From assembly GCA_027605045.1 (NCBI GenBank), contig JAQFWX010000008.1, positions 930,001 through 994,000 of the forward strand: a DNA stretch of 64,000 nucleotides, given 5' to 3'. A program made the translations under genes and the position numbers. How positions within the stretch are numbered: the first letter of the stretch is position 1; every line of letters starts with the position of its first letter. Positions 3,301 through 58,621 of the stretch are shown here, one piece after another. A model generated the notes under the pieces. The model did no database searches and was not told where the DNA came from. It saw only the letters and a program-made list of their open reading frames with translations. Origin of the DNA: Phallus indusiatus (lineage: Eukaryota; Basidiomycota; Agaricomycetes; Phallales; Phallaceae).

Positions 3301-6160
3301 TTACTCAGTCTCATGAGCGTCGACTGATCCACCCTCTGCTTCATCGCCCCCTCCGTCTTCTGCTTCATCCTCTGCTGTATAATAAAATTCGGAGCTATCG
3401 GAATCGTGATCAGAATCTTGCGAAAAGGTGAGAAATTGATGCAGTAATTACGACACAAGTAGGCTCACCGTCGGATACATCGCCTGATTCAGGTTGAATA
3501 GGACGTATTAAAGGAAGACCGCAAATACGAGCACCTTCATCGCTTTCTGGATCGATGCCCAACACAGTGTGAGTCTTTTGGATAATCTCAAAAACTGCAT
3601 AAGGAACGCTGAGCACACGGAGGGTTCGATGAATTTGAACTCTGAATGAATTTGAGCCGAAACCGAGGGTGTCCATATCAGAACAACATAGTCTCTTGGA
3701 CCCCGAACAATCAAGAGACCAGTATGTATCCAGCATTTCATCGCGCACCGCCGGTTTCGGAATGAAGAAGTATAACTCTTTATACCCAGAAGTTCCAATC
3801 GAACACCTGAGCCTGGAAGGAATCTGAATGTGCCACGAGAATCCAGTAACTACATTGACCGTATGTTTGGATTAAATTATCTATACAATGACACGATAGT
3901 AGTGAAATTGGCGTACCAACGCAAACATTACGAACGCAATCATAACAAGACTCGTGCATTCCATCGGTTCTTGCAAGTAAGCAGCCAATTTGACTGACAT
4001 ATCCACAACCCAATCGTTCCCAGGCAGCATAATCCGAATCTTGGACATCACATTCAACCACCACTGTCTGGAGATTGTCGATAGCCGAAATGCCTGCTGC
4101 ATCTACAGGAACGCGAATCCTGCAAACATTCAAGTGATATTCAGTACCGCAACATGATGGGAAACGTGATATACCTGATATGTTCACCACAATCTTCGAT
4201 GGTCACCTTTGTATGCAGTATTTTATTACGAACAAACCAATACAATGGTGATGGTTCTTTGTATGGAATAAACCCTAATATAGTTGCATCCGAAGCGTCG
4301 AGTGTATCGTTGTGTTGATCGGCTAATAAAATGTCACCGGTGTAGACAGAATATGTTGGTCCGGAGACGTCCTTCCATATATTGACACATATGACACGAT
4401 AGAGATCCCATAAGAAAGAGGGGACCAAGGGAACATTCGATCTTGAGGACAAATGCAGCATGTTTACTCTTTCCATAATCTTGGTCGACTCCTCTGGAGA
4501 TATATCGTTAATACGCACCGTCATCCGCTGAATATCAGGGACAACTTGTAGAATATTCGGCGACCATTCCTGAACTCACAATAATAATTTTTCATGCGTT
4601 TAGAAATGGGAAAAATGAACTAACAAATACGACAACCCCACGTCCGTCTAGAATGTTCACATAACAAGAGGCAAGATATCCATCCTCACGGTCTTTGAAA
4701 CCGATAAACGCGCGAGATAATCTCAGATCCCGCCAAGATATAATGGCATGGTGAGATATACCCTCTGCCACGTATTCACAGCCTTGCTGTAAGCAGAAGG
4801 CAAACGGTGAGATACAAACAATTGGCGGAATCGTGCTCGGTTCAAACTCACAAAACAAGACAAATCCTGAGATGTATTTGAAGAAGAAATTTCATCAAAT
4901 ATTATGGCGGCTCACTGCAAGGCGCAAATCTATGTACTGACCCCATGCATCGCTGAATCTTGGATTGTATTGTTCAAATGGAATACACCACGCTATATAC
5001 ATAAATAGTAAGTTTGGGTTTCATTTCGTGAGGTGACAAACGAACAGTTATGAAAGACAAGGCCAGGGCTTTCTTTTGACGTGATTATGCCAAATAGCTG
5101 CAACACATTTGGATGACTTGGAAGAAGAATGAGCTACTGTTGGTAGCTATCTCATAAGAGACGAGTGTATTACCGATATTGCGAGTGCAACTCCTTTTCT
5201 GCTTTGAATTTCTGTTGAAAGTATAAGATATAGCGAAAATGCGGCAGTATCTTTTTGTATCACGCACGGAATCAGCATCCCGGCCTTTGTAGACACGAAC
5301 CATCCGTGTCTGACTCTCTTGTTTCCATCGTACTTCCCAGTGTTCAACTTGTTCATTCGAGCTACTCTTGAGCAGGTTTAGATCACAAAGTCTAATTTTT
5401 TCGAGCTGGCTATTTTCAGAAGACTTCAGAACGTGAACGACTAACCCGACTTACATCAGAGTCCATCTCGTCTGTGTTACTGTTTATTTGTAGGCATATG
5501 ATTCCCCTAAACTAAATGTGGCACTGGAATGAGATTAAAGCTGCTTCAAATATTTGTGCGCACCATAAGGTTAATCCGAAACTTTTCTATCTCATTTTGA
5601 TATCGCATTAATGAACCTTTTTCGCGATCAGCTGTGAAATAACCACGAAGGAATTTTGGTTTATCCGATTTATTGAATGACTTGAGATCGTCGGATATGT
5701 GTTGCAAGTATCTATTCGAATGGTTTCAGGTCTTGATATTTATACGAGCAGAACTGCATACCGGTAAAACGTTTCGCAATCTTTCTCAAAATAATTCAAC
5801 GAGGACGTGGTTTCGGAAACCTTCTTAGTCTCTTCATGAAGTATCTGCAGGATTGTTGTGACAGTGATTGTTAGCTCCTTATAACTATCTTGGTTTTGTT
5901 GCATTTGCTGATTTCTCATCAGTTGAGTTCCATATATCCAATAGCTGACTCACTTGAATAGGCTTTAGCAGAGTCTTCACTAGCTCTGCTGCGCCCTTTA
6001 GATATGGGAATGGCAGAAGACCGCCAGCGGCACTAGCTAATTCAGCGACTTGGAAGGCATTAGACACCCAATCGGTTTCTTTTTGTAAAACTGATACTGT
6101 TGTTGAAGCTGAAGCCTCAGGCTCCTGAGTCCTAGGAGATTTCCTCTTTCGAAAACCCAT
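3301..6160 (-). CDS. Helical cell-death-like domain + pseudokinase protein, copy A
   Basis: Fourteen exons join without a stop to 717 residues: 6160-5954, 5907-5762, 5711-5564, 5511-5455, 5405-5268, 5211-5174, 5116-5046, 4992-4916, 4866-4852, 4786-4625, 4569-4175, 4119-3917, 3849-3469, 3416-3301. Residues 1-~185 are mostly helical (LPFPYLKGAAELVKTLLKPIQ; then RGYFTADREKGSLMRYQNEI) and resemble the MLKL_NTD/HeLo-like domain of basidiomycete proteins. Residues ~205-345 resemble a kinase: VRVYKGRDA at ~223, HPNVLQLFG at 246-254, a WRDL loop, no DFG. The C-terminal ~360 residues are conserved in all copies (TYWSLD, DMDTLGF, GIDPESDEGARICGLP). The tail is acidic (DSDHDSDSSEFYY...). Every intron is supported by conserved splice sites in the paralogues. 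Function is inferred; a role in regulated cell death or nonself recognition is plausible. Confidence 0.78.
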
Positions 6161-6200
6161 ACTTTGGAGACAGATTGTGTGGCGTGAAGTGATACACCGA

Positions 6201-6311
6201 CTATATCGATGGTTTAATATATGTCGAATGCGCGCTTTTCCTATGCCTCTCAGGAAGCTTCCTGTATAGCCTCTGGGAACAGCAGTCAATGTCGTCCAAT
6301 TGTAGCTGCAT
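6201..6311 (-). promoter_or_regulatory. Possible upstream ORF in the leader of copy A
   Basis: A 36-codon frame beginning MQLQLDDIDCCSQRLYRKLP lies 40-150 bases before the copy A start. The same opening peptide precedes copies B and F, where the frame is longer and runs into the main start in another frame. It may be a translated upstream ORF or simply conserved leader DNA. Confidence 0.25.
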
Positions 6312-6830: not shown

Positions 6831-6839
6831 GCTTCCCTG

Positions 6840-11559: not shown

Positions 11560-14262
11560 TCAGGATACATCGACTGATTCAGGTTGAATAGGACAGATTG
11601 AAGGAAGACCGCAGATACGAGCACCTTCATCGCTTTTTGGATCGATGCCCAATATAGTGTGAGCCTTTTGGATAAACTCAAAATCTCCATAACCAATGCT
11701 GAGCACGCGGAGGGTTCGATGAATTCTGAATGAATTTGAATCGAAACCAAGGGTGTCCATATCAGAACAATATAGCCTCTCGGTCCCCGAACGATCAAGA
11801 GACCAGTATGTATCCAGCATTTCATCGCGCACCGCCGGTTTCGAAATAAAGAGGTATACCTCTTTATACTCAAAAGTTCCAACTGAACACCTGAGTCTGG
11901 AAGGAATCTGGATGTGCCACGAGAATCCAGTAACTACATTGATCGTATGTTTGGATTAAATTATCTATACAATGACACGATAGTAGTGGAATTAGCGTAC
12001 CAACACAAACATTACGAGCGCAATCATAACAAGACTCGTGCATTCCATCGGTTCTTGCAAGTAAGCAGCCAATTTGACTGGCATATGCACGAGCCAATCG
12101 TTCCCAGGCAGCATTATCCGAATCGTCAACATCACATTCAACCACCACTGCCTGGAGATTGTCGATAGTCGAAATGCCTGCTGTATCTACAGGAACGCAA
12201 ATCCTGAAAACATTCAAGTGATATTCAGTACCGCAACATGATGGGAAACGTGCTATACCTGAAATGTTCACCACAATCTTCGACCGTCAATTTTCTATGC
12301 AGTATTTTATTACGAACAAACCAATCCAATGGTAATGGTTCTTTGTATGGAATAAACCCTAATATAGTTGCATTCGAAGCGTCGAGTGTATCGTTGTGTT
12401 GATCGGCTAATAAAATGTCACCGGTGTAGACAGAATATGTTGGTCCGGAGACGTCCTTCCATATATTGACGCTTATGGCACGATAGAGATCCCATAAAAA
12501 AGAGGGGTCCAAGGGAACATTCGATCCTGAGGACGAATGCAGCATGTTTACTCTTTCCATAATCTTGGTCGACTCCTCTGGAGATATATCGTTAATACGC
12601 ACTGTCATCCGCTGAGTATCAGGGACAACTTGTAGAATATTCGGCGACCATTCCTGATATCGAAGAATGAATTAAAGATAATGATTTTTCATGCGTTTAG
12701 AGATGAAAAAAATGAACTAACAAATACGACAAGCCCGCGTCCGTCTAGAACGTTCACATAATTAGAGGCAAGATATCCATCCTCACGGTCTTTGAAAGCG
12801 ATAAAATTGCGAAAGAATTTCAGATCCCACCAAGATATAATGGCATGATGAGATATACCCTTTGCTACGTAGAGACAGCCATCCTGTAAGCAGAAGGCAA
12901 ACGGTGAGATACAAACAATTAGCGGAATCGTGGCCTGTTCAAGCTCACAGAATAAGACGAAGTCTGAGATGTATTTGAAGAAGAAATTTCATCAAATATT
13001 ATGGCGGCTCACTGTAAGGTGCAAATCTATGTACCGACCCAATGCATCGCTGAATCTTGGATTGTATTGTTCAATTGGAATACACCACGCTATATACATA
13101 AATAGTAAGTTTGGTTTTCATTTTGTGAGGTGAAAAACGAACAATTATGAAAGACAAGGCCAGGGCTTTCTTTTGACGTGATTATGCCGAATAGCTGCAA
13201 CACATTCTGATGACTTGCACGAAGAATGAGCCACTGTTGATGGCTATTTCATGAGAGACGAGTGTATTACCGATATTGCGAATACCACTCCTTTTCTGCC
13301 TTGAATTTCTGTTGAAAGTATAAGAATATAGCGAAAATGCGGCAGTATCTTCTTGTATCACGCACGGAATCAGCATCCCGACCTTTGTAGACACGGACCA
13401 TCCGTGTCTGACTCTCTTGTTTCCATCGGACCTCCCAGTGTTCAACTTGTCCATTCGAGCTATTCTTGAGCACGTTTAGATCATAAACGCTGATTCTTTT
13501 GGGCTGGCTATTTTCAGAAATTTTCAGAATGTGAACGACTAACCCGACTTACATCGGAGTCCATCTCGTTCGTGTTGCTGCTTATTAGACGTATGATTCC
13601 CCTAAACTAAATGTACTGGAATGAGATTAGAGCTGCTTCAAATATACTTGTGCATACCATAAGATTACTCCGAAACTTTTCTATCTCATTTTGATATCGC
13701 ATTAGTGAACCCTTTTCACGATCAGCTGTGAAATAACCGCGAAGGAATCTCGGTTTATCCGATTTATTGAATGACTTGAGATCGTCGGATATGTGTTGCA
13801 AGTATCTATTTGAACGGTTTCAGGTCTTGATATTTATAGGTGCATAATTGCATACCGGTAAAATGTTTCGCAATCTTTTTCAAAGTAATTCAACGAGGAC
13901 GCGGTTTCAGAATTCTTCTTAGTCTCTTCATGAAGTATCTGCAGGATTGTTGTGACTGTAATTGTTAGCTCCTTGTAACTATCTTGGTTTTGTCGCATTT
14001 GCTGAGAAAGATTTCTCATCAGTTGAGTTCCATATTCCATTAGCTGACTCACTTGAATAGGCCCTAGCAGAGTCTTGACTAGCTCTGCTGCACCCTTTAG
14101 ATATGGGAATGGCAGAAGACTGCCAGCGGCACTAGCTAATTCAGCAACTTGGAAGGCATTGGATACCCAGTCGGTTTCTTTTTGTGGAAATGATAGTGTG
14201 GTTGAAGCTGATACCTCAGGCTCTTTCTGGAGATTAGTAGATTTTTTCTTTCGAAAACCCAT
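11560..14262 (-). CDS. Helical cell-death-like domain + pseudokinase protein, copy B (tail lost)
   Basis: Same exon plan as copy A, starting MGFRKKKSTN (ATG at 14262). All internal introns and frames are intact through IPSRLRCSVGTF and GIDPKSDEGARICGLP. A deletion has removed the last intron and the junction of the final exon: after GDVS-equivalent codons the reading frame meets TGA (11560-11562). The acidic tail sequence is still present in the DNA (11418-11560) but is no longer in frame. The protein is about 675 residues. Kinase-like motifs VRVYKGRDADS and HQNVLQLFG are present. It is convergent with an Arp9/GH30 3' relic at 11140-11240. Confidence 0.72.
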
Positions 14263-21204: not shown

Positions 21205-21753
21205 AGTGTAAGGCTCTCAACGGGTTAGAGGTCGCACAGGTTTAACCCGCAGGTACCTGTATCCGTACCCGCAGGTCACGGGTACCCGTCACACAGGTAC
21301 CCGGCGCCTAATTGACCCGGGTCGGGTACAGGTAGCCATTTTCGAAACCACGGGTACCCGTGCTAACCCGCCCTATAAGACATAGTGACAGGTGGGTGAT
21401 TTTCGAGTGGTGTTTGTCGTGATTTTTTTTTTATTTTGGCTCTAGAGAGCTCAAATCTTACTTAAAATGGAAATAAAAAAAATATGCCAACAATATTTTT
21501 TAATTCTCTACAAGATAAGTTGGGCGCTTAAATAAGCGCCCATATCGCTTAATAACTTAATCTAGTAACATCTAGTCACACGTGACATTACCTGCAGGTA
21601 ACACACAGGTACCCGCAGATTACCTGTTGTCACAGGTTGACCTGCCTACCCGCAGGTTGTCACGTGACCCGCGGGTTGAAACCCGGGTCAGGTCGAGGAT
21701 ACCCAAATTTTTGACACTGACCCGCGGGTACGGGTACCCGTACCCGCGGATCC

Positions 21754-22011
21754 TGTCACGCCCGCGTAACACCTCGCTTAAGTGGAGCTCCGCTCATTCC
21801 TTTTCCGTACCTCGCTTATATTCTTTTGTTTCCCCGTTCCGATCCATTTCCTTTTCCGTCCTTGTTATCTTGTTGTAACCCGTTTCAGGTCTCTATTTAG
21901 TTTCATAGCTATTTAAAGATCGAGCTTCCTGTAACTACTTCTCCAGTTCTGATATAGATCTTATTCCGCCCATTCTCCCACACGTTTCACATCTCGATCC
22001 AATCTCATCTA
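21754..22011 (+). mobile_element. Gypsy-1-family LTR, first 258 bp (older copy)
   Basis: Starts tgtcacgcccgcgtaac and matches positions 1-258 of the LTRs at 31927 and 39727, with several substitutions and a 1-bp gap while those two look identical. Left flank GATCC (21749-21753) equals the right flank of the LTR at 40353. It is cut at 22011 by the Gypsy-3 LTR. Confidence 0.8.
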
Positions 22012-22407
22012 TGTTAGGGCTACTCAGCTCACACTAGAGGGAGGGGATCCTAAGAGAATATATTGGAAGGGAAACTAACTACTCACCTAGAGGGAGGGGA
22101 TCCTAAGAGAACAAGCTTAGGGACCCTCACTCTAGGTACAGCTACTATATACATAAAACGACGACGCGGCGTGCGGCCCTGACACAACTAAGTGCCAGGC
22201 GCCCAAGCTGAACCTAAGCGACGTGATGTCACGGACATCACGCCGGGTACGAGCGCGCGACGCGCGCGAGTAGAGAAAGTGAAATAGAGACAGAACAAGG
22301 AATCGGAGAGTGAAAGTAAAATATGGAAAGGATAAATAAAATAGAAAAGAAACAATGCCGATGATAATAAATAAGAAAATGAGAGACGGCGGTAGCGTAC
22401 CCTGACA
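22012..22407 (-). repeat. Gypsy-3 3' LTR
   Basis: 396 bp bounded by tgttagggct and accctgaca (TG...CA). A second copy of the same LTR lies alone at 23165-23557. It contains two direct 'cctagagggaggggatcctaag'-type repeats. Confidence 0.8.
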
Positions 22408-22412
22408 CCATC

Positions 22413-23029
22413 TGTCACGCGCCGTGTTCCGGGCGTCTAGGCGGAAGTCCGGGGAGTCCGGACTACGGGACAGAAGGGACTTGGCTTCAGCTTATGTGCT
22501 GCGCCGACTCAGACGACCCTGGATATCCCTTAATTTCGGACTAGAAGTCCAAGACAGCCCGGACGTAGTCCGGCAGGTCCGGACAAGTACTGGGAGCGGA
22601 CTTTAAACGAGATAGATAAGAGAAGATTTGATTATAAAGAGTTTAACTGGGCTAGACTTAAAATAGACTTGAATACGACTTGATATTCAGACTGGGGAGC
22701 CCCAGACGAAGTCTGGGGCTTTAAATACAAAAAGCTAGACTACTAGAACTAAAGGAGATATAACTAAAAGGAGACTAGTTGCACAGCACCAGAAACATAT
22801 CTGGCACTTGCTTTCTAATGCTCCGGACAGAATGTCCCCATAAGGAAATGTCCTAGTCCGGACTTCGTCCGGACCTTGGACTTACCGGACGTGGACAGAA
22901 TAACGGACTACGCACTGTTGGACAAGTACTGACGCTCGGACATGGTGGATATACTAAATATGGACGGGGATTGGGCGCCGGACCTCGGAGAGGTCCGGAT
23001 TAGGATCGGGTGGCACGAGGGTCGTGACA
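22413..23029 (-). repeat. Gypsy-2 3' LTR
   Basis: 617 bp, tgtcacgcgcc to gtcgtgaca. Dense in the self-complementary octamer gtccggac. Pairs with 26159-26776. Confidence 0.88.
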
Positions 23030-23164
23030 GTATTCCCCCTCTAAGGTCGAGTCCCACGAGACCGTCAGTATACAGGAGACAGGGGTGCTGGTAGTAGATG
23101 AAAAAATAAAAAAGAAAGGGGACAGAGAACGGGAGACGGGGAAAGAATGGAAATGAGCGGAGAT

Positions 23165-23557
23165 TGTTAGGGCTACTCAGCTCACACTAGAGGGAGGGGA
23201 TCCTAAGTAATATATTGGAGGATAACTACACTACTCACCTAGAGGGAGGGGATCCTAAGAGAACAAGCTTAGGGACCCTCACTCTAGGTACAGCTACTAT
23301 ATACATAAAACGACGACGCGGCGTGCGGCCCTGACACAGCTAAGTGCCAGGCGCCCAAGCCGAGCCTAAGCGACGTGATGTCACGGGCATCACGCCGTGT
23401 ACGAGCGCAACGCGCGAGTAGAGAAGGTGAAATATGGACGGAGAGAATAAACGGAAGGTAGAGGTAATGCACGGGAAATATAAATAAGGTAGAAATAGAT
23501 ATATACCGATGATAATAAATAAGGAAAAATGAGGGGACGCGGTAGCGTACCCTGACA
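23165..23557 (-). mobile_element. Solo LTR of the Gypsy-3 family inside Gypsy-2
   Basis: 393 bp matching the Gypsy-3 LTR at 22012, flanked by the 5-bp duplication GAGAT (23160-23164 and 23558-23562). It has no internal region, so it is the product of LTR-LTR recombination after insertion. Confidence 0.85.
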
Positions 23558-24644
23558 GAGATGAGTCGGAAAATAAAAATGTACAGGGCCCGGGTGCACA
23601 AGTCAGTAGCGGGGCGTCTATATGTACTGTAGTTAGTACTCCTGAGGGACGACACCAGCGTTCTTGGCGGACTTGGACGGGAAAACGCGGACTTGGACAG
23701 GGAAGTGCGGACTTGTGCGGGCGTTGGACGGAAAGAAAGACGGACGAAAATAGACAAAGATAAGAAAAAGGAACGGACAGGACATACAAAAATGGACAAG
23801 GACGGACGAAAATATAGACATGGACAGAAGAAAAAGGACAGGCAGGATGGACAGAAACAGACATGGACGAGAAAAAGAAAAAGAAAAAATGGTGTGGGGG
23901 GGGGCAGACAAGTCCGAGGGTTTTCGCGCTGGTGGAGTACCTACTCCCCCTTCTAGGACGGACCGGAGTGGACGTCGGACGGGCGGACTACGCGGACCCA
24001 GAGTCGGACTTGGGTGGAATCACTTACAATGGACTCCAAAGGGTTACTTCATGACGAGTTTTCAAAGGCCAGAGCCGGAAAATACCGGAGTTGGCGTGCG
24101 CGCGCGGACTTCTTCAGAACCGAAGTACTGCAAAGTACGGACAAAGTCCGAAGCAGGTACTGGACGGAGTGGGTGCCTTTGTTGTCAGATGGTGGACATC
24201 TCTAGAAAAACGTCAGGGGAAGTCGGGAAATGTTCGGACTTGCCCGGGAAAGTGCGGACTTGTCCAAACGCAGGGGGTTCTGAAGACATGAACGGGAGAT
24301 ACACAGGGTGGTTGCGGGGTCCTGGAAAAGGGTACTGCTTGTTCCATATCGACCAACGGGTCACAGCGGGTTAGCGAGTGGTATCCATGGACTAACAACC
24401 GACCTATGATCTATCAGAGTTGCAGGGGACCTGCCGGAGGAGTGTGCGGACTGCACGGATGGGTGCCCGGACCTTGCGGACTACATTCCGGACGAAGTCC
24501 GAGACGTGTGATCCCTGAAGGTCAGATGGGCAGAGCCAGACATAAATAGATAAAAAAAAAGAAAAAAGGAACCAGAAGTCGCTGTGGACGAAGCAAAGTC
24601 CGGTCGGGCGCGACGAGGTCCGACGCGGACAGGACACTCGGACT

Positions 24645-26117: not shown

Positions 26118-26158
26118 GATAAAGAAAAGGGCCGGCGAGTGGGCTAGTCTGAATATAC

Positions 26159-26776
26159 TGTCACGCGCCGTGTTCCGGGCGTCTAGGCGGAAGTCCGGGG
26201 AGTCCGGACTACGGGACAGAAGGGACTTGGCTTCAGCTTATGTGCTGCGCCGACTCAGACGACCCTGGATATCCCTTAATTTCGGACTAGAAGTCCAAGA
26301 CAGCCCGGACGTAGTCCGGGCAGGTCCGGACAAGTACTGGGAGCGGACTTTAAACGAGATAGATAAGAGAAGATTTGATTATAAAGAGTTTAACTGGGCT
26401 AGACTTAAAATAGACTTGAATACGACTTGATATTCAGACTGGGGAGCCCCAGACGAAGTCTGGGGCTTTAAATACAAAAAGCTAGACTACTAGAACTAAA
26501 GGAGATATAACTAAAAGGAGACTAGTTGCACAGCACCAGAAACATATCTGGCACTTGCTTTCTAATGCTCCGGACAGAATGTCCCCATAAGGAAATGTCC
26601 TAGTCCGGACGAAGTCCGGACCTTGGACTTACCGGACGTGGACAGAATAACGGACTACGCACTGTTGGACAAGTACTGACGCTCGGACATGGTGGATATA
26701 CTAAATATGGACGGGGATTGGGCGCCGGACCTCGGAGAGGTCTGGATTAGGATCGGGTGGCACGAGGGTCGTGACA
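26159..26776 (-). repeat. Gypsy-2 5' LTR
   Basis: 618 bp. Differs from its partner by a few bases, including one small inverted core (see findings). Followed on the minus strand by gtatattcag and the gag start. Confidence 0.88.
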
Positions 26777-26787
26777 CCATCCCCCCT

Positions 26788-31913: not shown

Positions 31914-31926
31914 CTGTGAGGCCTGG

Positions 31927-32553: not shown

Positions 32554-32604
32554 GTATATCAGAACTGACACTCACGTGCGTTTTCACTCCCGTTCCTGCC
32601 CACC

Positions 32605-34434: not shown

Positions 34435-34442
34435 AAAACTAG
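34433..34442 (+). promoter_or_regulatory. Slippery heptamer A-AAA-AAC before the ancestral gag stop
   Basis: In the inferred ancestral gag frame the codons are GTA AAA AAC TAG, so the last base of GTA plus AAA AAC forms a canonical -1 frameshift heptamer (34433-34439) directly before the stop. After a -1 slip the next codons are CTA GTC TGC GAC, in frame with pol at 34469. Confidence 0.65.
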
Positions 34443-34468
34443 TCTGCGACCCACCAGAAACTCGTCCT

Positions 34469-37400: not shown

Positions 37401-38224
37401 GCCAAACGGAACGAATGAACCAGACCTTGGAACAGTACCTCCGCGTGTACTGTAACTACCAGCAGGACAATTGGTCCGAACTCTTACCACTCGCAGAGTT
37501 CGCATACAACAACTCCGTCTCTGCCACCACCGGAATCACCCCGTTCTTTGCCAACAAAGGCTATCACCCCAATCTCGAAGTCCACCTAGACCGTACCCTA
37601 TCTTCCGAACCAGCCCGAACCTTCGTCACTGACCTCGGAGAACTCCATGAAGAGCTCAAACAGCACATCGCCGATGCACAACGACGCTATCAGCATAGTG
37701 CTGACCAACGACGTTCCGAACCACCAGCATTCAAGATCGGCGACAAAGCCTACGTCAAATCCAAGTTCATCTCGACAACCCGACCCTCCAAGAAGCTCGC
37801 CGAAAGGTTCTTAGGACCTTACAAGATCATTGCCCAACCAGGCTCCCTGTCGTACACCCTCAAGCTCCCTCCTCACATGCGAGCCATTCACCCCATGTTC
37901 CACGTATCCATGCTCGAACCTCACGTCCCGAACACCATTCCGAACCGAGTGCAACCTCCCCCACCACCAGTCGAAGTCGACAGTGTGATGGAGTACGAGG
38001 TCGCCGAGGTTTTAGACTCTAAGTTGGACCGACGTTGCCGTATACAGCTCCACTACTACGTGCGATGGCTAGGCTATGAAGGCACCGATGAAGAGTTTTC
38101 CTGGATCAACGCCTCCGACATAGCCAACGCTCCCGATGTCGTAGCAGCGTTCCACGAAGCTTACCCCGATAAACCTGGCCCAGACCCAAGATTCTTTAGC
38201 CCCATTTCCGAAGTAGATACTTAA
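34469..38224 (+). CDS. Gypsy-1 Pol polyprotein
   Basis: 1251 residues from a GTG codon. The frame is open upstream to the slippery site, so translation probably enters by -1 frameshifting rather than its own start. Domains in order: aspartic protease (GLVDSGSSNCFID), reverse transcriptase (FVKKKDGSLRLCVDFRGLN, VVAYIDDLLVYS), RNase H (IETDASDYALAAILS), integrase with zinc finger (HFGQNKTLEL...CDTCLRNK) and DDE core (MDFIEKLP, TSDRGSEFVSRFF, ERMNQTLEQYLR), and a C-terminal chromodomain (EVLDSKLDRR, YYVRWLGYEG). No internal stop. The protein should be catalytically complete. Confidence 0.9.
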   Translation: MGRKDLTERVPVSPVSVSFDSDSLDYKTLKAVKFLRFNSVALSDPKSCILNLTSEILPDPFRGLVDSGSSNCFIDSDFVKKNDLVTEPIDPIPIMLIDGTVNNHVSSVASLPIRFPSGEVLPIPFYVTPLESTCAVVLGHDWLLRYNPLIDWRLSSVTFRDSVKGETSPKSTYVRAASLTHTVDPVVQPSLELSRPEHPVQPIDIGFLTATSFMRACKVKGSSAFKLNFPRSQPAELHARAASLESPDLSTIPSEYHDYADVFSKQQANSLPPHRQFDLQIVLEEGTSPPLGPIYSLSPRELEALREFLDENLASGFIQPSTSPHGAPVLFVKKKDGSLRLCVDFRGLNKITKKDRYPLPLISDLLDSPRKARIYSKIDLQHAFHLVRVAEGDEWKTAFRTRYGSFEWLVMPFGLSNAPSVFQRFVNEVFADLLDTSVVAYIDDLLVYSDSPEEHVQHVREVLRRLRHHKLYASAKKCVWHTDKVEFLGFVLGTEGLSMDPSKVEVIQKWPPPRRTKDIQSFLGFANFYRRFIHDYSKITVPLTRLTRKGTDWDWTDECQRAFDALKAAFTTAPVLTHWIPDAPLVIETDASDYALAAILSIYVNGDLHPIAFHSRTFTSPELNYDVHDKELLAIFEAFKRWRHYLEGSATPIDVITDHKNLVYFSSTKMLTRRQARWSEYLSQFNLVIRFRPGRQGAKPDALTRRWDVYAKEGSSDYATVNPHNFRPMFSQDQLASSLRATYLLPLALRGAKIMDIAQLHEDIRAALPHDPLSAPNLASPSNPWSLTDGLLRFKGKIFVPDQKDLRLRVLQDKHDHILAGHFGQNKTLELVQREYYWPDLRDFVQNFAKTCDTCLRNKSQRHKPYGFLKQLPIPDKPWNSISMDFIEKLPESDGFTDILVIVDRLTKQVIFIPTVDTITAPELAKLFVMHVFSKHGVPSHVTSDRGSEFVSRFFRSLGTALNMKLHFTSGYHPEGDGQTERMNQTLEQYLRVYCNYQQDNWSELLPLAEFAYNNSVSATTGITPFFANKGYHPNLEVHLDRTLSSEPARTFVTDLGELHEELKQHIADAQRRYQHSADQRRSEPPAFKIGDKAYVKSKFISTTRPSKKLAERFLGPYKIIAQPGSLSYTLKLPPHMRAIHPMFHVSMLEPHVPNTIPNRVQPPPPPVEVDSVMEYEVAEVLDSKLDRRCRIQLHYYVRWLGYEGTDEEFSWINASDIANAPDVVAAFHEAYPDKPGPDPRFFSPISEVDT

Positions 38225-38329
38225 AACGTCCCTTTTCTTTTCTTTCCTTTCCCTTTCCCGAACCTTATCACACCTCGATCATAGGTAGAATAAGAAACAA
38301 AAGAAAATTAAAATTATTAGTACAAGTAA

Positions 38330-39578
38330 TTACTCTACGTCCATAGTATCTTGGGTCTCAACGACCTCTTTTTCTCCTTCCTTCCCCTTTCCTTTTCCCG
38401 TCCCGACCTCCGTTCCACCCTTCTCCCGATCTTCCTCCTCTCCTTCGTCATCCGAGCCTTCTCCGCTATCCTCGATCGGCTCCTTCCCGACCTTACTAGA
38501 GCCCTCACCCCGATCCTCCTCGAAGTCTTCGATCGGCGATGTGAAGCGGTGCCTATTTCGCCTCTCCTCCAACTCCTTCGCATCCTCCTCTGTCGCGAGC
38601 CTTAAATCTTGTTCGGCCGACTTCAACCAATTGTCTGGGTCTGGCACGTCCAACCAACCCGCCAGCCTCGCTGCTTTCGCGACCTCGCCAATGATCCTAG
38701 TCTGATGAAGTTGGGCCGAGAAGAGGCTCCCCAAAACCTCGTTTAGCTTTCTCAGCTCTACCACCTGGTCCTCCGAAGCCTTCACCTTCCTTTTTTCGAG
38801 TCGCAAAGCCACCGACTCTGCCGAAGTATCGACCTTGCGACGCTTCTTTGGGGGTTCGCCTGGGACCTCTGTTTCCGGCGACTCCCACGGCCACTTGCAC
38901 CCTATCCGACGTGCCGAACACGTCAAACACGTCCCTTTCGGGCCCTCCACACTTTTCACCTTACAAGGCCACCCTTTCTTCTGGGGACCTCCGACGCGGC
39001 AATTTGCACATCGCTCCTCTTCAGGGAGCTCGAATCCGCCGATCTTCGAGACGTCGGTAGTAACTTTGCCAGTTCTTTTCTTCACTGGCTTGTCAACGAT
39101 TCCCTGAAAAGCCCGAGTCAGTAACTGATCGAAATAACCCCAACGAACCCACCATAGAGTGGGCCGCCAGACCAACTGCAGCAAGGTTCACCGCCTCCCA
39201 CCCAGTAGGAGCAAGCGCTTCGCCAAGGCTACAGATTTCACGCACCTCCTCCCTACTGAGGGGCGACTTCTCTATGGTCTCTCGCATCCGCTTCGCCGAC
39301 GCCTGCTTGGCCTTCAAGACCTCCGCCTCCCGTTCCCGCCTCTCCTTCTCTTCCCGCTCCTTCCGAGCCTTCTCCAGAGCCTCTCGCTCCTCCCTCTCCC
39401 GACGTTCCCGCTCTAATCTCTCAGCCTCTTCCCTCCGCTGCTCCTCGACCTCTTCGCAACGACTTCGGTAGATTTGGCGCTGCAATTCGCGCTCCTTTTC
39501 CCGAACAATTTTAGGAACCTCGACATCGGGGTAGCTTGGGTCGGGGGTGAGTTGTCGGATGGTTGGGGGGACAGACAT
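38330..39578 (-). CDS. Antisense, spliced gene inside Gypsy-1 (coiled coil + Cys-rich finger)
   Basis: It lies between pol and the 3' LTR on the opposite strand. Exon 1 (39578-39153) begins MSVPPTIRQLTPDPSYPDVE and encodes a long Arg/Glu coiled coil (residues ~25-105). A 49-base intron (39152-39104, GTGGGTT...TTTTCAG) joins it in phase to exon 2 (39103-38330). Exon 2 has six cysteines arranged C-x2-C-x11-C-x11-C-x2-C-x6-C (CANC...CLTC...CKW), a basic KKRRK motif, and an acidic end. About 399 residues. An in-frame ATG at 39626 is an alternative start. The finger resembles DNA-binding-type clusters in mushroom proteins, but I do not recognise the family. Function is unknown; a nuclear role for the element is a guess. 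Confidence 0.65.
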
Positions 39579-39726
39579 TGAGCGTAGAATTAAGGGTAAA
39601 GACAGGACTTTGGAAAATTTATCCAAAGTCCACGCCTTTTATCCAACCAGCCCGAAGTTTTTCAAACCCAGATGAAACACTAACCTCGCGAACGGCCGCG
39701 CGGTCGCGGCCTTAAGGGGGAGATAC

Positions 39727-40353
39727 TGTCACGCCCGCGTAACACCTCGCTTAAGCGGAGCTCCGCTCATTCCTTTTACGTACCTCGCTTATATTCTTTT
39801 TGTTTCCCCGTTCCGAACCATTTCCTTTTCCGTCCTTGTTATCTTGTTGTAACCCGTTTCAGGTCTCTATTTAGTTTCATAGCTATTTAAAGATCGAGCT
39901 TCCTGTAACTACTTCTCCAGTTCTGATATAGATCTTATTCCGCCCAATCTCTCACACGTTTCATATCTCGATCCAATCTCATCTCAGATCCCTTGTCGTC
40001 GTTGACGGCGTCCTCGAACGTCGTCGGCGACGTTGCGTCTATCTTCTTCAACAACTACCTCTGACCAACTTCTCCGACCCCATTCCTAACTCCAAGACTC
40101 CGACGTCCTCCGACTCAGTCTCTACCCAGAACCTCCGACGTTGTTAAAGCCTCGGAGAACTCACCCTAGACCCCTGTACGTGGCCCGACCTAGTACTAAC
40201 CTAGGAAAGCCTCGTAGCCCTGCCCCGACCCGAAATTGTTGGTGACGCACCGTGAGGGCGCAACTCAAGAGTAAGTTGAAGCCGACCAACATCCGACCCA
40301 CGTCCGATCCTGTCCCGAGCCTCGCTTAGTCATCCCGACCCCGGCGCGTAACA
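39727..40353 (+). repeat. Gypsy-1 3' LTR
   Basis: 627 bp, preceded by the polypurine tract cttaagggggagatac, followed by GATCC and the right end of the hAT-like element. Confidence 0.88.
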
Positions 40354-40392
40354 GATCCAACCCGTTGAGAGCCTTACTGTTGAACAGTGAAC

Positions 40393-40676: not shown

Positions 40677-43561
40677 TTACTCAGTCTTATGAGCGTCGAC
40701 TGATCCACCCTCTGCTTCATTGCTCCCTCCATCTTCTGCTTCAGCATCCTCTTCGTCATCTGCTTCATCCTCTTCATCCTCTGCTGTATGATAAATTTCG
40801 GAGCTATCAGAATCCTGATCAGAATCTTGTGAAAAAGTGAGAAATTGATGCAGCAATTACGACTCAATTTAGGCTCACCGTCGGATACATCGCCTGATTC
40901 AGGTTGAATAGGACATATTAAAGGAAGACCGCAAATACGAGCACCTTCATCGCTTTTTGGATCGATTCCCAACACAGTGTGAGTCTTTTGGATAAACTCA
41001 AAAACTTCATGAGAAACGCTGAGCACACGGAGGGTTCGATGAATTTGAACTCTGGATGAATTTGGGTCGAAACCGAGGGTGTCCATATCAGAACAGCATA
41101 GTCTCTTGGACCCCAAACGATCAAGAGACCAATATGTATCCAGCATTTCATCGCGCACTGCTGGTTTCGAAATGAAGTAGTATAACTCTCTATACCCAGA
41201 AGTTCCAACCGAACACCTGAGCCTGGAAGGAATCTGGATGTGCCACGAGAATCCAGTAACTACATTGACCGTATGTTTGGATAAATCATCTGTACAATGA
41301 CATGACAATAGTGGAATTGGCGTACCAACGCAAATTTCCCAAGGCACGAACATTCCATCGGTTCTTGCAAGTAAGAAGCCAATTTGACTGACATATCCAC
41401 AAGCCAATCGTTGCCAGGCAGCATAATCCGAATCTTCGACATCACATTCAACCACCACTGTCTGGATATCGTCGATAGCCGAAATGCCTGCTGCATCTAC
41501 AGGAACGCGAATCCTGGAAACATTCAAGTGATATTCAATACCGCTACATGATGGGAAACGTGATATACCTGAAATGTTCACCACAATCTTCGATGGTCAC
41601 CTTTGTATGCAGTATTTCATTATGAACAGACCAATCTAATGATGATGGTTCTTTGCATGGAATAAACCCTAATACAGTTGCGTCCGAAGCGTCGAGTGAA
41701 TCGTTGTGTTGATCGGCTGATAAAATGTAACCAGTGTAGACAGAATATGTTGGTCCGGAGACGTCCTTCCATCTATCGACATATATGACACCATAGAGAT
41801 CCCATAAGAAAGAGGAGACCAAGGGAACATTCGATCTTGGGGACAAACGCAGCATGTTTACTCTTTCCATAATCTTGTTTGACTCCCCTGGATATAGATC
41901 TTTAATATGCACCGTCATCCGCTGAGTAGCAGGGACAACTTGTAGAATATTCGGCGACCATTCCTGAACTCACAATAATAATTTTTCATGCGTTTTAGAA
42001 ATGAGAAAAATGAACTAACAAATACGACAACCCCGCGTCCATCTATAACGTTCACATAACAAGAGGCAAGATATCCATCCTCACGGCCTTTGAAACCGAT
42101 AAACTCGCCAGAGAATTCCAGATCCCGCCAAGATATAATGGCATGGTGAGATATACCCCCTGCCACATAGAGACAGCCTTCCTGTAAGCAAAAAAAAAGC
42201 AAACGGTGAGATACAAACAATCGGCGGAATCGTGGTCGGTTCAAGCTCACACGATAAGACCAACTCTGAGATGTATTGAAGAAGAAATTTCATCAAATAT
42301 TATGGCGACTCACTGCAAACTGCAAATCTATGTACTGACCCAATACATCGCTGAATCTTAAATTGAATTGATCAAATGGGATGCACCACGCTATATACAT
42401 AAATCGTAAGTTTTGATTTTCATTTTGTGAAGCAACATAGACGAACGGTTGTGGAAAACAAGACCAGGGCTTTCTTTTGACGTGATTATGCCAAAAAGCT
42501 GCAACACATTTGGATGACTTGCACGAAGAATGAGTTACCGTTGATAGCTATTTCCCGAGAGGAGAGCGTATTACCGATATCGTGAATACCACTCCTTTTC
42601 TTTTTTGAACCTCTGTTGAAAGTATAAGAATATAGCGTTAACGCGGCAGTACCTTCTTGTATCACGCACGAAATCAGCATCCCGACCTTTGTAGACACGA
42701 ACCATCCGTGTCTGACTCTCTTGTTTCCATCGGACCTCCCAGTGTTCAACTTGTCCATTCGAGCTATTCTTGAGCACGTTTAGATCATAAACGCTGATTC
42801 TTTCGGGCTGGTTATTTTCAGAAGATTTCAGAACGTGAACGACTAACCCGACCTACATCAGAGTCCATCGTGTTGCTGCTTATTTGTAGACGTATGATTC
42901 CTCTAAACTAGATGTGGCACTGAAATGAGATCAGAGCTGCTTCAAATATATTCGTGCACACCATAAGATTATTCCGGAACTTTTCTATTTGATTTTGATA
43001 TCGCACTAACGAATCTTTTTCACGATCAGCTGTGAAATAACCACGAAGGAATTTCGGTTTATCCGATTTATTGAATGTCTTGAGATCGTCGGATATATGT
43101 TGCAAGTATCTATTCCAACGGATTCAGGTCTTGATATTTATAGGTGCAGAATTGCATACCGGTAAAACGTTTCGCAATCTTTTTCAAAGTGATTCAACGA
43201 GGACGTGGTTTCGGAATTCTTCTTAGTCTCTTCATGAAGTATCTGCAGGATTGTTGTGACAGTAATTGTTAGCTCCCTATAACTATCTTGGTTTTGTTGC
43301 ATTTGCTGATTTCTCATCAGTTGAGTTCCATATATCCATTATCTGACTCACTTGAATAGGCTTTAGCAGAGTCTTAACTAACTCTGCTGCGCCCTTTAGA
43401 TATGGGAATGGCAGAAGACCGCCAGCGGCACTAGCTAATTCAGCAACTTGGAAAGCATTAGATACCCAGTCGGTTTCTTTTCGTAAAACTGATACTGTTG
43501 TTGAAGCTGATGCCTCAGGCTCTTTCTGGGGACCAGTAGACCTTTTCTTTAGAAAACCCAT
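40677..43561 (-). CDS. Helical cell-death-like domain + pseudokinase protein, copy D
   Basis: Start MGFLKKRSTGPQKEPEASAS at 43561, stop TAA at 40677-40679, same 14-exon plan as copy A. All splice sites and frames inspected are intact. Kinase-like segment: VRVYKGRDADF, then RFKKEKEWYSRYRHPNVLQL. C-terminal core: DTYWSLDRLGS and GIDPKSDEGARICGLP. The tail DQDSDSSEIYHTAEDEEDEA is longer than that of copy A by repeats of a gaagaggatgaagcagatga-like unit. It lacks ~6 residues around the NVCVG segment. It sits between the transposon nest and a BRAP fragment. Confidence 0.78.
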
Positions 43562-48395: not shown

Positions 48396-51249
48396 TCAGT
48401 CTTCTGCCTCAACATCCTCTTCATCATCTGCTTCATCATCTGCTTCATCCTCTGCTGTATGATTAAATTCGGAGCTATCAGAATCATGATCAGAATCTTG
48501 CGAAAAAAGTGAGAAACTGATGCAGCAGTTACAGCTCAAGCAGGCTTACCGTCAGATACATCACCCGATTCAGATTGAATGGGACATATCAAAGGAAGAC
48601 CTAAAATACGAGCACCTTCATTGCTTTTTGGATCGATGCCCAGCACTGCGTGAGTCTCCTGGATATACTCAAAGGTTGTATAACCAATTTTGAACACACG
48701 AAGCGTTCGACGAGTTTGAACCTTGAATGAATTTGAGTCAAAGCCGAGGGTGTCCATATCAGAACAATATAGTCTCTCGGACCCCGAAGAATCAAGAGAC
48801 CAGTATGTCTCAAGTGTTTCATTGTGCACCGCCGGTTTCAAAATAAAGAAGTATAACTCTTCATACCCAGAAGTTCCGGCTGAACATCTGAGCCTGGAAG
48901 GAATCTGAATGTGCCACGAGAATCCAGTAACTACAGCGACCGTATGTTTAGTAAAATCATCTATACAATGACACAATAGTAGTGGAATTAGCGTACCAAC
49001 GCAAACATTACAAGACTTGTGCATTCCATTAGTCCCTGCAAGTAAGCAGCCAATTTGACTGACGTATGCACAAGCCAATCGTTCCCAGACAATATGGTTC
49101 GAATATACAATATCACTTTCAACTACCACTGTCTGGAGATCGTCGGTAGCCGAAATGCCGGCTGTATCCACAGGAACACGAGTACTGAAAACATTCAAGT
49201 GATATTCAGCGCCGCTACATGATGGGAGACGTGCTATACCTGATATGTTCACCACAATCTTCGACAGTCAATTTTGTGTGCAGTACTTTATCACGAACAA
49301 ACCAGTCCGATGATGATGGTTCTTCGCATGGAAAAAACCCTAATAAAGCTGCATTCGAAGCATGAAGTGCATTGTTGTGTACATCAGCTAATAGAATGTC
49401 ACCAGTGTAGACTGGATATGCTGGTGCAGAGACGTCCTTCCATATAATGACATGTATAGCATCATAGAGATCCCACAAGAGAGAAGGGTCCGAAGGATCG
49501 TCCGGCTTTTGGGATAAACGCAGCAAGTCTACTCTCTCCATAATCTTCAACGTTGACTCTCGAGACATAGCGCTAATACGCATCGTCATCCACTGAGAAA
49601 CAGGGACGATTTGTAGAATATTCGGTGACCATTCCTGATATTGAAGAATGAATTCACAATGATAATTTTTCATGCGTTTAGTGATGAGAAAATTGAACTA
49701 ACAAATACGACAAGCCCGCGTCCATCTAGAACGTTCACATAACAAGAGGCAAGGTATCCGTCCTCGCGGCCTTTGAAACCGATAAAGATGCGAGAGAATT
49801 GCAGATCCCGCCGGGATAAAATGGCATGATGAGATATATCCTTTTCCACGTAGAGACAGCCTTCCTGTAAGTGTAAGGTAAATGGTGAGATACAAACAAT
49901 TAGCGGAACCGTGGTCGGTTCAAGCTCACAGAATAAGACGAAATCTGAGATGTATTTGAAGAAGAAATTTCATCAAATATTGTGGCGGCTCACTGTATGG
50001 CAGGAGTTTATGTACCGACCCAATGCATCCCTGAATTTTGAATTGAATTGAGAAAATGGGATACACCATGCTATATACGTAAATAGTAAGTCTTGATTTT
50101 CATTTTGTGAAGTGATATGAACGAACGGTTGTGAAAGACAAGGCCAGGGGTTTCTTTTGACGTGATTATGCCGAATAGCTGCATCACATTTGGATGACTT
50201 GCACGAAGAATAAGCTGCCGTTTATAACTATTCCGCAAGAGAAGAGTGTACTACCGAAATTGCGAATACCACTCCTTTTCGTTTTTGAATTTCTGTTGAA
50301 AGTATAAGAATATAGCGAAGAAGGAGCAGTATTTTTTTGTGTCACGTACGGAAATAGCATCCCGGCCTTTATGGACACGAACCATCCGTGTTTGACTCTC
50401 TTGTTTCCATCGGACCTCCCAGTGTTCAACTTGTCCATTCGAGATATTCTTGAGCACGTTTAGGTCGCCCGGTCTGATTCTTTCGAACTGTCCACTTTCA
50501 GAGCACTTCAAAACGCGAACAAGCAATCCGACTTACCTCAGAGTCCATGTTGCCTTGGAGACGTATCACACCCCTGAGCTAGATGTAGGACTGGAATGAA
50601 ACCAAGATCTGTGTCAAATATATTCGTGCCCACCATAAGATTGATCCGACACTCGTCTATCTGACTATGATAACGTGCCAATGAATCTTTTTCACGATCA
50701 GCTGCGAAATATTTCCGAAGGAGTTTTGATCTATATGGTTTATTGGAAGACTCGAGATTATCCGAGATGTCTCGCAAGCATCTGTTTAGATGGATTCAGA
50801 CTGCTAAGCATCTTATATGAGCAGAATTGCATACCTATAAAATTCTTTACAGCCTTTCTTAAAGTTGTTGAACGAGTCTGACGCGGCTTCATAATCACTT
50901 TTGGTTTCCTCGTGAAGCATTTGGAGAATATTTGTGACTTTAACCGCGAGCGTCTTATAACCATCTTGGTTTTGTTTCATTTGCTTATTTTCGTTTTCTA
51001 TCAGCGCTCACAAGTTGAGATCTAATGACTCACTTGGATAGGCTTTAGCAGAACCTTGACTACTTCCGCTGCACCCTTTAGATATGGGAATGGTAGGAGT
51101 CCCCCCACCGCACTAGCCAATTCAGCAGCCTGGAAGGCGTTAGATACCCAGTCGATTTCGCTCTGCATAACAGATACTGCGATTGAAGCTGATGCCTCAT
51201 GCACATGTTCATTCTGGGCGATAGGGGACCTCTTCTTCTGAAAACCCAT
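48396..51249 (-). CDS. Helical cell-death-like domain + pseudokinase protein, copy E
   Basis: Start MGFQKKRSPIAQNEHVHEAS at 51249 (3 residues longer near the start). All exons of the family plan are open. Kinase-like motifs: VRVHKGRDAIS and HPNVMQLFG. C-terminal motifs: TYWSLDSSGS and GIDPKSNEGARILGLP. The final exon ends early at TGA (48396-48398), so the acidic tail stops at ...DEEDVEAED and lacks the GGSVDAHxTE ending of A, D and F. Closest to pseudogene C, with which it shares N-terminal residues (KQNxD, DxASDSF) and upstream DNA. It abuts the Arp9 pseudogene at ~48300 with no GH30 relic between them. Confidence 0.77.
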
Positions 51250-55718: not shown

Positions 55719-58621
55719 TTACTCAGTCTTATGAGCGTCGACTGATCCACCCTCTGCTTCATCGCCCTTTCTGTCTTCTGCTTCAACATCCTCTTCATCC
55801 TCTGCTTCATCATCTGCTTCATCCTCTGCTCCATCATCTGCTGTATAATAAAATTCGGAGCTATCAGAATCGTGATCAGAATCTTGCGAAAAAGTGAGAA
55901 ATTGATGCAGCAATTACGGCTCAAGTAGGCTTACCGTCAGATACATCACCTGATTCAGGTTGAATAGGACATATTAAAGGAAGACCTAAGATACGAGCAC
56001 CTTCATCGCTTTTCGGATCGATGCCCAACGCAGCGTGAGTCTTTTGGATAAACTCAAAATCTTCATAACCAATGCTGAGCACACGGAGAGCTCGATGAAT
56101 TTGAACTCTGAATGAATTCGGGTCAAAACCGAGGGTGTCCATATCAGAACAATATAGCCTCTCGGACCCCGAACGATCAAGAGACCAGTATGTATCTAGC
56201 ATTTCATCGCGCACTGCCGGTTTCGAAATAAACAAGTATAACTCTTTATACCCAGAAGTTCCAACCGAACACCTTAGCCTGGAAGGAATCTGGATGTGCC
56301 ACGAGAATCCAATAACTACATTGACCGTATGTTTGGATAAATCATCTATATAATGACATGATAGTGGAATTGGCATACCAACGCAAACATTACAACACTC
56401 GTGTATCCCATCGGTTCTTGCAAGTAAGCAACCAATTTGACTGACATATGCACAAGCCAATCGTTCCCAGGCAGCACCATCCGAATCTTCGACATCACAT
56501 TCAACCACCACTGCCTGGAGATCGTCGATAGCCGAAATGCCTGCTGTATCTACAGGAACGCGAATCCTGCAAACATTCAAGTGATATTCAGTACCGCTAC
56601 ATGATGGGAAACGTGCTATACCTGAAATGTTCACCACAATCTTCGATGGTCACCTTTGTATGCAGTATTTTATTACGAACAAACCAGTCTAATGATGATG
56701 GTTCTTTGCATGGAATAAACCCTAATATAGTTGCGTCCGAAGCATCGAGTGTATCGTTGTGTCGATCGGCTAATAAAATGTAACCAGTGTAGACAGAATA
56801 TGTTGGTCCGGAGACGTCCTTCCATATATCGACATATATGACACGATAGAGATCCCATAAGAAAGAGGGGACCAAGGGAACATTCGATCTTGGGGACAAA
56901 CGCAGCATGTTCACTCTTTCTATAATCTTGTTCGACTCCTCTGGATATATATCGTTAATACGCACTGGCGTCCGCTGAGTATCAGGGACAACTTGTAGAA
57001 TATTCGGCGACCACTCCTGATAATGACGAATTAACTCACAATAATAATTTTTCATGCATTTAGAGATGAGAAAAATGAACTAACAAATACGACGACCCTG
57101 CGCCCGTCTAGAACATTCACATAACAAGAGGCAAGATATCCATCCTCACGGTCTTTGAAACCGATAAAATTGCAAGAGAACCCCAGATCCCGCCAAGATA
57201 TAATGGCATGGTGAGATATACCCTTTGCTACGTAGAGACAGCCTTCCTGTAAGCAGAAGGCAAACGGTGAGATACAAACAATTAGCGGAATCGTGGTCGG
57301 TTCAACCTCACAAAATAAGACAAATCCTGAGATGTATTTGAAGAAGAAATTTCATCAAATATTATGGCGGCTCACTGCAAGGCGCAAATCTATGTACCGA
57401 CCCAATCTATCGCTGAATCTTGGATTGAATTGAGAAAATGGAATACACCACGCTATATACATAAATCGTAAGTTTTGATTTTCATTTAGGTGACAAACGA
57501 ACAATTATGAAAGACAAGGCCAGGGCTTTCTTTTGACATAGTTATGCCAAATAGCTGCAACACATCTGGATGACTTGCACGAAGGATGAGCTATCGTTTA
57601 TAACTATTTCATAAGAGACGAATGTATTACCGATATCGCGAGTGCAACTCCTTTTCTGCTTTGAATTTCTGTTGAAATTATAAGAATATAGCGAAAATAC
57701 GGCAGTATCTTTTTGTATCACGCACGGAATCAGCATCCCGGCCTTTGTAGACACGGACCATCCGTGTCTGACTCTCTTGTTTCCATCGGACCTCCCAGTG
57801 TTCAACTTGTCCATTTGAGCTGCTCTTGAGCAGGTTTAGATCACAAAGTCTGATTTTTTCGAGCTGGCTATTTTCAGAAGACTTTTAGAACGTGAACGAC
57901 TAACCCGACTTACAGAGTCCATCTCGTCTGTGTTGCTGCTTATCTGTAGACGTATCATTCCCCTAAACTAAATGTGGCACTGGAATGAGCTTAGAGCTGC
58001 TTCAAATATATTTGTGCGCACCATAAGATTACTCCGAAACTTTTCTATCTCATTTTGATATCGTGCTAATGAATCTTTTTCTCGATCAGCTGTGAAATAA
58101 CCACGAAGGAATCTCGGTTTATCCGATTTATCGAATGACTTGAGATCTTCGGATATGTGTTGCAAGTATCTATTCGAACGGATTCAGGCCTTGATATTTA
58201 TAGGAGCAGAATTGCATACCGGTAAAACATTTCGCAATCTTTTTCAAAGTAATTCAACGTGGACGTGGTTTCGGAATTCTTCTTAGTCTCTTCATGGAGT
58301 ATCTGCAGGATTGTTGTGACAGTGATTGTTAGCTCCTTATAACTATCTTGGTTTTGTCGCATTTGCTGATTTCTCATCAGTTGAGTTCCATGTATCTATT
58401 AGCTGACTCACTTGAATAGGCTTTAGCAGAGTCTTAAATAGCTCTGCTGCGCCCTTTAGATATGGGAATGGCAGAAGACCGCCAGCGGCACTAGCTAATT
58501 CAGCAACTTGGAAGGCATAAGACACCCAGTCGATTTCTTTTTGTAGAATTGATACTGTGGTTGAAGCTGATGCCTCAGGCTCCTTCTGGGTACTAGGAGA
58601 TTTTTTCTTTCGAAAACCCAT
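55719..58621 (-). CDS. Helical cell-death-like domain + pseudokinase protein, copy F
   Basis: Start MGFRKKKSPSTQKEPEASAS at 58621, stop at 55719-55721, the full 14-exon plan open. Kinase-like part: VRVYKGRDADS, KFKAEKELHSRYRHPDVLQL (Asp for Asn), and a WRDL loop without DFG. C-terminal core: TYWSLDRSGSERLY and GIDPKSDEGARILGLP. It has the longest acidic tail, with repeated DEADDEAEDEED units, ending GGSVDAHKTE. The exon FRGMIRLQ lacks one codon before its donor. This copy ends the array: its leader runs directly into a truncated RanBP3-like gene at ~58770. Confidence 0.78.

Follow-up and report, generated by a model that had tools for sequence, protein, structure and literature searches.

Haplotype-variable array of predicted helical-pseudokinase genes in Phallus indusiatus: a tentative candidate for an MLKL-like cell-death or immune locus

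The window analyzed here, a 64,000-nucleotide stretch of the genome of the basidiomycete Phallus indusiatus (contig JAQFWX010000008.1, positions 930,001 to 994,000 of the forward strand), harbors six minus-strand paralogues, copies A to F, which were delineated by self-comparison of the window and alignment of the six copies (Table 1). The predicted proteins consist of a helical N-terminal domain, a kinase-like segment, and a C-terminal region. The exon models are derived from splice signals and reading-frame phase common to the copies. A single 14-exon plan is shared by A, D, E, and F, and the 64 introns of the five open copies (A, B, D, E, and F) are without exception of the GT-AG type and 46-69 nt long. 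In copy B a deletion joined exons 13 and 14, which reduces the exon count to 13 and leaves the acidic tail out of frame and thus lost. Copy C is classed as a pseudogene: codons 235, 397, and 428 are in-frame stops, and AG is missing from two acceptors; its counterpart on the other haplotype (L058) is likewise broken. Exon 9 is modeled as a microexon, since a longer alternative, now rejected, would place a stop in B, C, E, and F.

A preliminary description of this DNA, made from the sequence alone, had reported six full-length minus-strand paralogues with one 14-exon plan as well as a separate remnant of exon 1. The six copies and their strand are confirmed, with the reservation that B has 13 exons and C is a pseudogene, while a tblastn search of the window with D and E (E ≤ 1e-3) detected no exon-1 remnant outside the six genes. 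The length predicted for the product of copy A, 717 residues, is reproduced, and the 2-bp deletion noted near position 5555 does fall in an intron of A, intron 3, leaving the frame open. The array as first observed is therefore confirmed in part.

Table 1. Positions of the gene copies, of the segments of copy A, and of the retrotransposon block, numbered from the first nucleotide of the window.
Feature	Positions	Strand	Description
Copy A	3301..6160	-	14 exons, 717 amino acids (aa); exon 1 6160-5954, last exon 3416-3301; open frame, 13 of 13 introns GT-AG
Copy A, exons 1-4	5455..6160	-	predicted helical N-terminal domain (residues 1-186), with the strongest constraint in window 31-60
Copy A, exons 5-10	4625..5405	-	kinase-like segment, residues 187-353
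Copy A, exon 9	4852..4866	-	15-nt microexon; junction 9-10 spliced in sister gene
Copy A, exons 11-13	3469..4569	-	C-terminal region, residues 354-679; ratio of nonsynonymous to synonymous differences per site (pN/pS) near 1 at 361-390, 511-540, 631-660
Copy B	11560..14262	-	13 exons, 676 aa, open frame
Copy C	18892 to about 16085 (3' end approximate)	-	pseudogene
Copy D	40677..43561	-	14 exons, 722 aa, open frame
Copy E	48396..51249	-	14 exons, 706 aa, open frame
Copy F	55719..58621	-	14 exons, 728 aa, open frame
Retrotransposon block between C and D	21749..40354		Ty3/gypsy-like, two elements, judged by eye
Long open reading frame of block	26788-29634	-	judged by eye
Long open reading frame of block	34370-38224	+	judged by eye

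The array extends far beyond the window. The assembly (67.2 Mb in 206 contigs, apparently representing two haplotypes) contains at least 70 exon-13 loci among the matches listed, a few of them partial, with 35 on contig C184, to which the window belongs (641-1389 kb), 27 on contig C136, which carries the other haplotype, and eight on other contigs. The 150 matches to DUF6533, an agaricomycete family, and the number of NACHT matches in this genome fit a mushroom-type fungus. Twenty loci were modeled. Fifteen are intact (A, B, D, E, F, a1-a6, C184x, b2, L057, and, to the extent that its last exon is covered, C76), and five are broken (C, L058, C124, b1, and C18, the last apparently without a start). 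The right flank of the window is 99% identical to C136:163641-165635 and the left flank 94% identical to C136:117842-119139; between these flanks C136 carries seven copies, a1-a6 and L058, compared with six in the window. By exon, the identity between F and a6 is 96.6-100%; E and a5 do not differ in exons 8-14 and are 88-96% alike in exons 1-7 apart from an identical exon 6; and for A and a1, the first copies of the two haplotypes, the similarity by exon is 72-96%. Copy a1 is a mosaic whose N-terminal half is E-type and whose C-terminal half is A-type: its exons 1-7 group with a5 and E (support values of 0.98 and 1.00), and its exons 10-13 group with A (0.91). Synonymous divergence (pS) is 0.37 in the N-terminal domain, about twice the level after residue 300 (0.15-0.19). 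The grouping of a1 together with this step in pS points to recombination or conversion among copies, with probable breakpoints around exons 7-10. An inverted second copy (94%) of the right-flank region lies on both haplotypes, at C184:1169516-1171545 and C136:352800-354830, and suggests that the array tract contains a large inverted duplication.

Evidence for splicing comes from L057 (C184:700135-703016 of the same genome), a diverged sister gene that is intact and follows the same exon plan as the window copies. Two relatives in the protein database, P0001 (424 aa) and P0002 (200 aa), match this gene; their source is given as 'lgn', which we take to be assembled public reads. P0001 aligns to the L057 model with 99.3% identity over 415 aa and spans junctions 9-13, and P0002 aligns with 95.7% identity over 188 aa and spans junctions 1-3, both without gaps. 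Eight of the 13 introns (1-3 and 9-13) are thus seen removed in the L057 open reading frames, with introns 5-7 outside the coverage. At its start P0001 retains the end of intron 8, and at its end P0002 runs into intron 4; such ends would fit partly spliced transcripts, with an intron-free copy as an alternative source. The splicing evidence, as judged from these alignments, applies to the sister gene and not to the window copies themselves.

Kinase homology in the central segment is supported by two kinds of profile comparison. A profile of residues ~168-385 from seven copies matched 165 PDB sequences at E ≤ 10, and the best 60 of these are all kinases but one thioredoxin, with MLT/ZAK (E 0.0014) followed by A-Raf and KSR2. 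Most of the kinases matched in the profile comparisons are of the TKL or TK type. In hhalign, the alignment to four kinases of the same genome and human MLKL scored 43, above 60 of 60 shuffles (maximum 21), and a repeat run gave 41.9 compared with 22.5, again above every shuffle. This alignment spans the alpha-C helix to the catalytic loop; with human MLKL alone the score was 30 compared with 24, over 27 columns only. The Pfam kinase family PF07714 was matched by four of seven segments (best E 0.0062), one member reaching 14.9 of 23.1 bits, below the cut-off. An alignment reading of copy A places a putative beta-3 lysine at Lys226, an alpha-C glutamate at Glu237, an HPN motif, and a degenerate WRDL at residues 317-320; a4 has glutamine in place of the putative lysine. 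The catalytic loop tripeptide varies across copies (WRD, RRD, WWD, WRG, or WGH) with no DFG after it, and the weak MLT/ZAK alignment continues to about residue 370 without a DFG. A complete bilobal pseudokinase was not found, as the alignment to the own-genome kinases and MLKL stops near the catalytic loop. Residues ~187-350 are therefore best read as a truncated tyrosine kinase-like (TKL) pseudokinase without a conserved catalytic loop or DFG, in line with the pseudokinase that the preliminary description had proposed. Pfam scans of whole A and D gave sub-threshold matches only (Med11, DHR-2_Lobe_A, and PK_Tyr_Ser-Thr), with neither NACHT nor NB-ARC at E ≤ 1; a PDB sequence search with whole D returned weak matches only, many of them ABL and ILK kinases; and a protein search for relatives of the kinase-like part yielded nothing among 1344 candidates.

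The N-terminal domain was modeled on the relative P0002 using the exon 1 and 2 rows only, because exon-fragment alignments misplaced exon 3. The resulting low-confidence model has an extra N-terminal helix (residues 32-48) and a four-helix bundle with a short helix between h3 and h4 (135-144). Pfam matches for eight N-terminal domains are scattered over helical and coil families, with Med11 in six of the eight and GAS in one (E 0.00058); a single domain matches PF17111 (E 0.0086), a family with a HeLo-like link. For the C-terminal region, the scan of A and D identified no Pfam family in residues 354-679. A model of P0001 was discarded as unusable (mean predicted local distance difference test score 39.5), and a candidate internal repeat, LxxSxxxxLGF (A residues 440-455 and 603-618; exons 11 and 13), was rejected because 14 of 60 shuffles were as good.

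The intact copies display graded constraint. Across 91 pairs of 14 intact copies, the whole-gene ratio of nonsynonymous to synonymous substitution rates (dN/dS; NG86 method) is below 1 in all 91, with a median of 0.46 and a maximum of 0.61, rather than near 1 in all copies, in line with the earlier proposal of selection on several copies. Since recombination occurs among the copies, these ratios and the pN/pS values below are descriptive and do not constitute site tests. Regional median dN/dS is 0.24 for residues 1-172, 0.45 for 188-300, 0.70 for 301-353, 0.72 for 354-484, 0.91 for 485-551, and 0.49 for 552-678. Codon-bootstrap pN/pS follows a similar course: 0.31 (0.24-0.39) for residues 25-172, 0.49 for 188-300, 0.76 (0.57-1.07) for 354-484, 0.87 (0.59-1.35) for 485-551, and 0.53 for 552-678. 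The lowest 30-codon window covers residues 31-60 (0.15), and windows near or above 1 include residues 271-330 in addition to those listed in Table 1 for the C-terminal region. Selection is purifying, strongest in the helical N-terminus and near neutral at residues 354-551. The claim of the preliminary description that introns drift but exons are conserved does not apply to substitutions, for which identity among A, B, D, E, and F is 87.3% in exons and 88.0% in introns. It does apply to indel phase: in pairwise counts, which are not independent events, multiples of three make up 36 of 42 indels in exons compared with 19 of 87 in introns. Comparisons with pseudogene C give the same pattern, 44 of 47 compared with 15 of 82; therefore, either C died recently or the indel test is weak, and indel phase alone is no proof that a copy is alive.

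Between C and D, the long terminal repeat (LTR) pair 31927-32554 and 39727-40354 is 100% identical, so that one retrotransposon insertion looks recent. C136 has no room for the block, with ~2.4 kb between the neighboring genes compared with 21.8 kb in the window, the C136 spacing being taken from match positions. Other sequences have been copied within the window. A Vma12-like V-ATPase assembly gene lies downstream of A and of F (1356-1910 and 53841-54305, minus strand) and was duplicated with them, the 1356-1910 gene matching PF11712 with E 0.004, below the family cut-off. Apparently frame-broken, BRAP2-like zf-UBP fragments lie at 51580-52483 and 44700-46000, with a PF02148 match of E 2e-14 at 52094-52483 and relatives widespread on C184 and C136. 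A 0.6-kb block occurs three times (2401-3038, 20607-21204, and 54818-55429) at ~70% identity. A conserved partner gene was sought by repeat and Pfam scans only.

The interpretation considered foremost, at a little under an even chance, is that the array encodes cis-gated, single-protein modules of MLKL-like membrane death or immunity. Residues ~1-172, the extra N-terminal helix and four-helix bundle, would act as a helical effector that binds and permeabilizes membranes when released. The catalytically dead, truncated TKL-like kinase of residues ~187-350 would restrain the bundle and serve as a conformational switch, and residues ~354-680 would form a variable recognition or regulatory region; a sensor role for this C-terminal region is suggested by its variability. 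Tandem duplication, loss, and recombination between the halves would then create new effector-reader combinations that differ between haplotypes.

Several results weigh against this MLKL-like interpretation. A Foldseek search with the weak model gave nothing at E ≤ 0.001, with designed bundles, c-Cbl, and CAMP factors scoring at least as high. PF22215 (MLKL_N) is absent from the matches listed for all eight N-terminal domains, CDD MLKL_NTD, the profile employed in the BaMLKL paper, not having been tried, and a PDB search with the N-terminal profile returned no MLKL. In hhalign, 61 of 100 shuffles aligned to human MLKL as well as the N-terminal profile did, and the match to an MLKL_N protein of the same genome is weak, being equalled by 5 of 100 shuffles in one run and by 7 of 60 in another; an alignment of human MLKL to this own-genome protein, made as a positive control, likewise fails, and the hhalign test therefore has little power. 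Outside the N-terminus, two of seven kinase-like segments match PF05394 (AvrB_AvrC; best E 0.019), whole-gene dN/dS never exceeds 1, and the introns are as conserved as the exons, so that constraint is modest. At present confidence the predicted fold is only a generic helical bundle. A four-helix bundle, the fold that the preliminary description proposed to look for, is present in the weak model; the sequence and profile comparisons with MLKL give no usable match. The interpretation offered in that description is supported in part. A search of the genome for PF22215 (six frames, exon by exon) gave matches on contigs C1 and C60 only and none in the array. These belong to a separate MLKL_N protein outside the array family, above the Pfam cut-off (L053, C1:1659752-1660078; L054, C60:55181-55507), present as one copy per contig in long open frames of 924 and 946 aa.

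An unlikely but appreciable alternative is that the copies are pseudokinase scaffolds in ordinary, for example developmental, signaling, with the N-terminus an oligomerization or adaptor coil and the array a lineage-specific TKL-like expansion of mushrooms. The kinase homology is indeed the best supported part of the protein, the generic bundle and scattered helical or coil matches would suit an adaptor, and two papers describe an exceptional number of TKL kinases in Laccaria bicolor (PMC2838846) and Agaricomycetes-expanded TK (tyrosine kinase)-related kinases with a proposed role in mushroom development (PMC3937382). However, conserved catalytic motifs are missing, most of the C-lobe is unrecognizable, and the strongest constraint falls on residues 31-60 of the helical domain rather than on the kinase part; a haplotype-variable mosaic array would also presumably be unusual for a developmental scaffold. 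Passive amplification, in which a repeat- and transposon-rich tract duplicated neighboring genes jointly and most copies are weakly constrained passengers, is quite improbable. The Vma12-like and zf-UBP/BRAP2-like gene pieces copied with the units, the five broken loci of 20, the equal divergence of exons and introns, and the LTR elements inside the array all fit such a process, but 15 of the 20 modeled loci remain open across their 13-14 exons, the length of most exon indels is divisible by three, dN/dS stays below 1 in every pair, and L057, a diverged sister gene with the same exon plan, is intact. Least probable among the alternatives is that the copies are not self-contained sensors but effectors or decoys, triggered by NOD-like receptor (NLR) partners encoded at other genomic loci. 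At least 91 NACHT matches occur in the genome, and NLRs can trigger fungal HeLo-type executors (PMC12881547, PMC10197012); yet none of the 91 NACHT matches listed lies within C184:641-1389k, no amyloid-motif search having been made.

If the array proteins do kill, the MLKL-like reading would describe a gene-array form of a necroptosis-like executioner outside the NLR system. A further extension, doubtful at best, is that the superarray, with at least 35 copies on one contig and with copy numbers and divergent, mosaic alleles that differ between the two haplotypes, is a basidiomycete somatic-incompatibility or immune locus composed of self-contained killers, in which a constrained effector half and a variable reader half are reshuffled by recombination; if true, each gene would be the single-protein counterpart of an NLR-plus-executor system. 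Little is understood of somatic incompatibility in basidiomycetes, and a haplotype-variable array of intact, putatively MLKL-like pseudokinase genes provides a concrete candidate. The part of PMC8229728 that was available gives three to five loci for basidiomycetes, some perhaps highly polymorphic, uses ascomycete models, and names no basidiomycete gene.

The comparison with known systems, limited to the accessible portions of the papers cited, indicates that HeLo-like domains joined to kinases or pseudokinases are already known in fungi, as related proteins are described in PMC12881547, PMC9815663, and PMC8229728. Among the papers listed by searches of open-licence PubMed Central, none was seen to report an array of this kind in a basidiomycete. 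Animal and plant MLKL (human MLKL; AtMLKL2, 6lba) may share with the array proteins a four-helix bundle followed by a pseudokinase; in contrast, the latter have no bundle sequence match, an extra N-terminal helix, a degenerate C-lobe, and an extra C-terminal region. FslK and the Laccaria TKL expansions (PMC3937382, PMC2838846) are likewise TK/TKL-like relatives expanded in Agaricomycetes; unlike FslK, which is predicted to be active, the array proteins have lost the catalytic motifs and carry a predicted helical bundle. BaMLKL, for which 600 sequences were counted (PMC9815663), also occurs in mushroom fungi and has the extra N-terminal helix and the short h3-h4 helix seen here in the weak model. 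It is described as the N-terminus of NLRs or as a separate protein no longer than 400 aa, whereas the array domain precedes a kinase relic and a C-terminal region of ~330 aa and has no Pfam MLKL_N match. Podospora het-V PaMt2, which consists of MLKL plus a TUDOR reader (PMC8229728), is similarly haplotype-specific and unites executor and reader in one polypeptide, as the array proteins would; its reader domain differs, and het-V is a two-gene presence/absence locus with a known incompatibility function while the array is large. Closest in plan are fungal HELL domains, some of which are joined to a kinase or pseudokinase and have been called reminiscent of MLKL (PMC12881547). Compared by description, these proteins share with the array proteins the plan of a helical effector, predicted in the latter, and a (pseudo)kinase. 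In the array proteins the kinase part is truncated and followed by a variable C-terminal region, and the genes form dozens of copies that vary between haplotypes, features that the description of HELL proteins does not mention.

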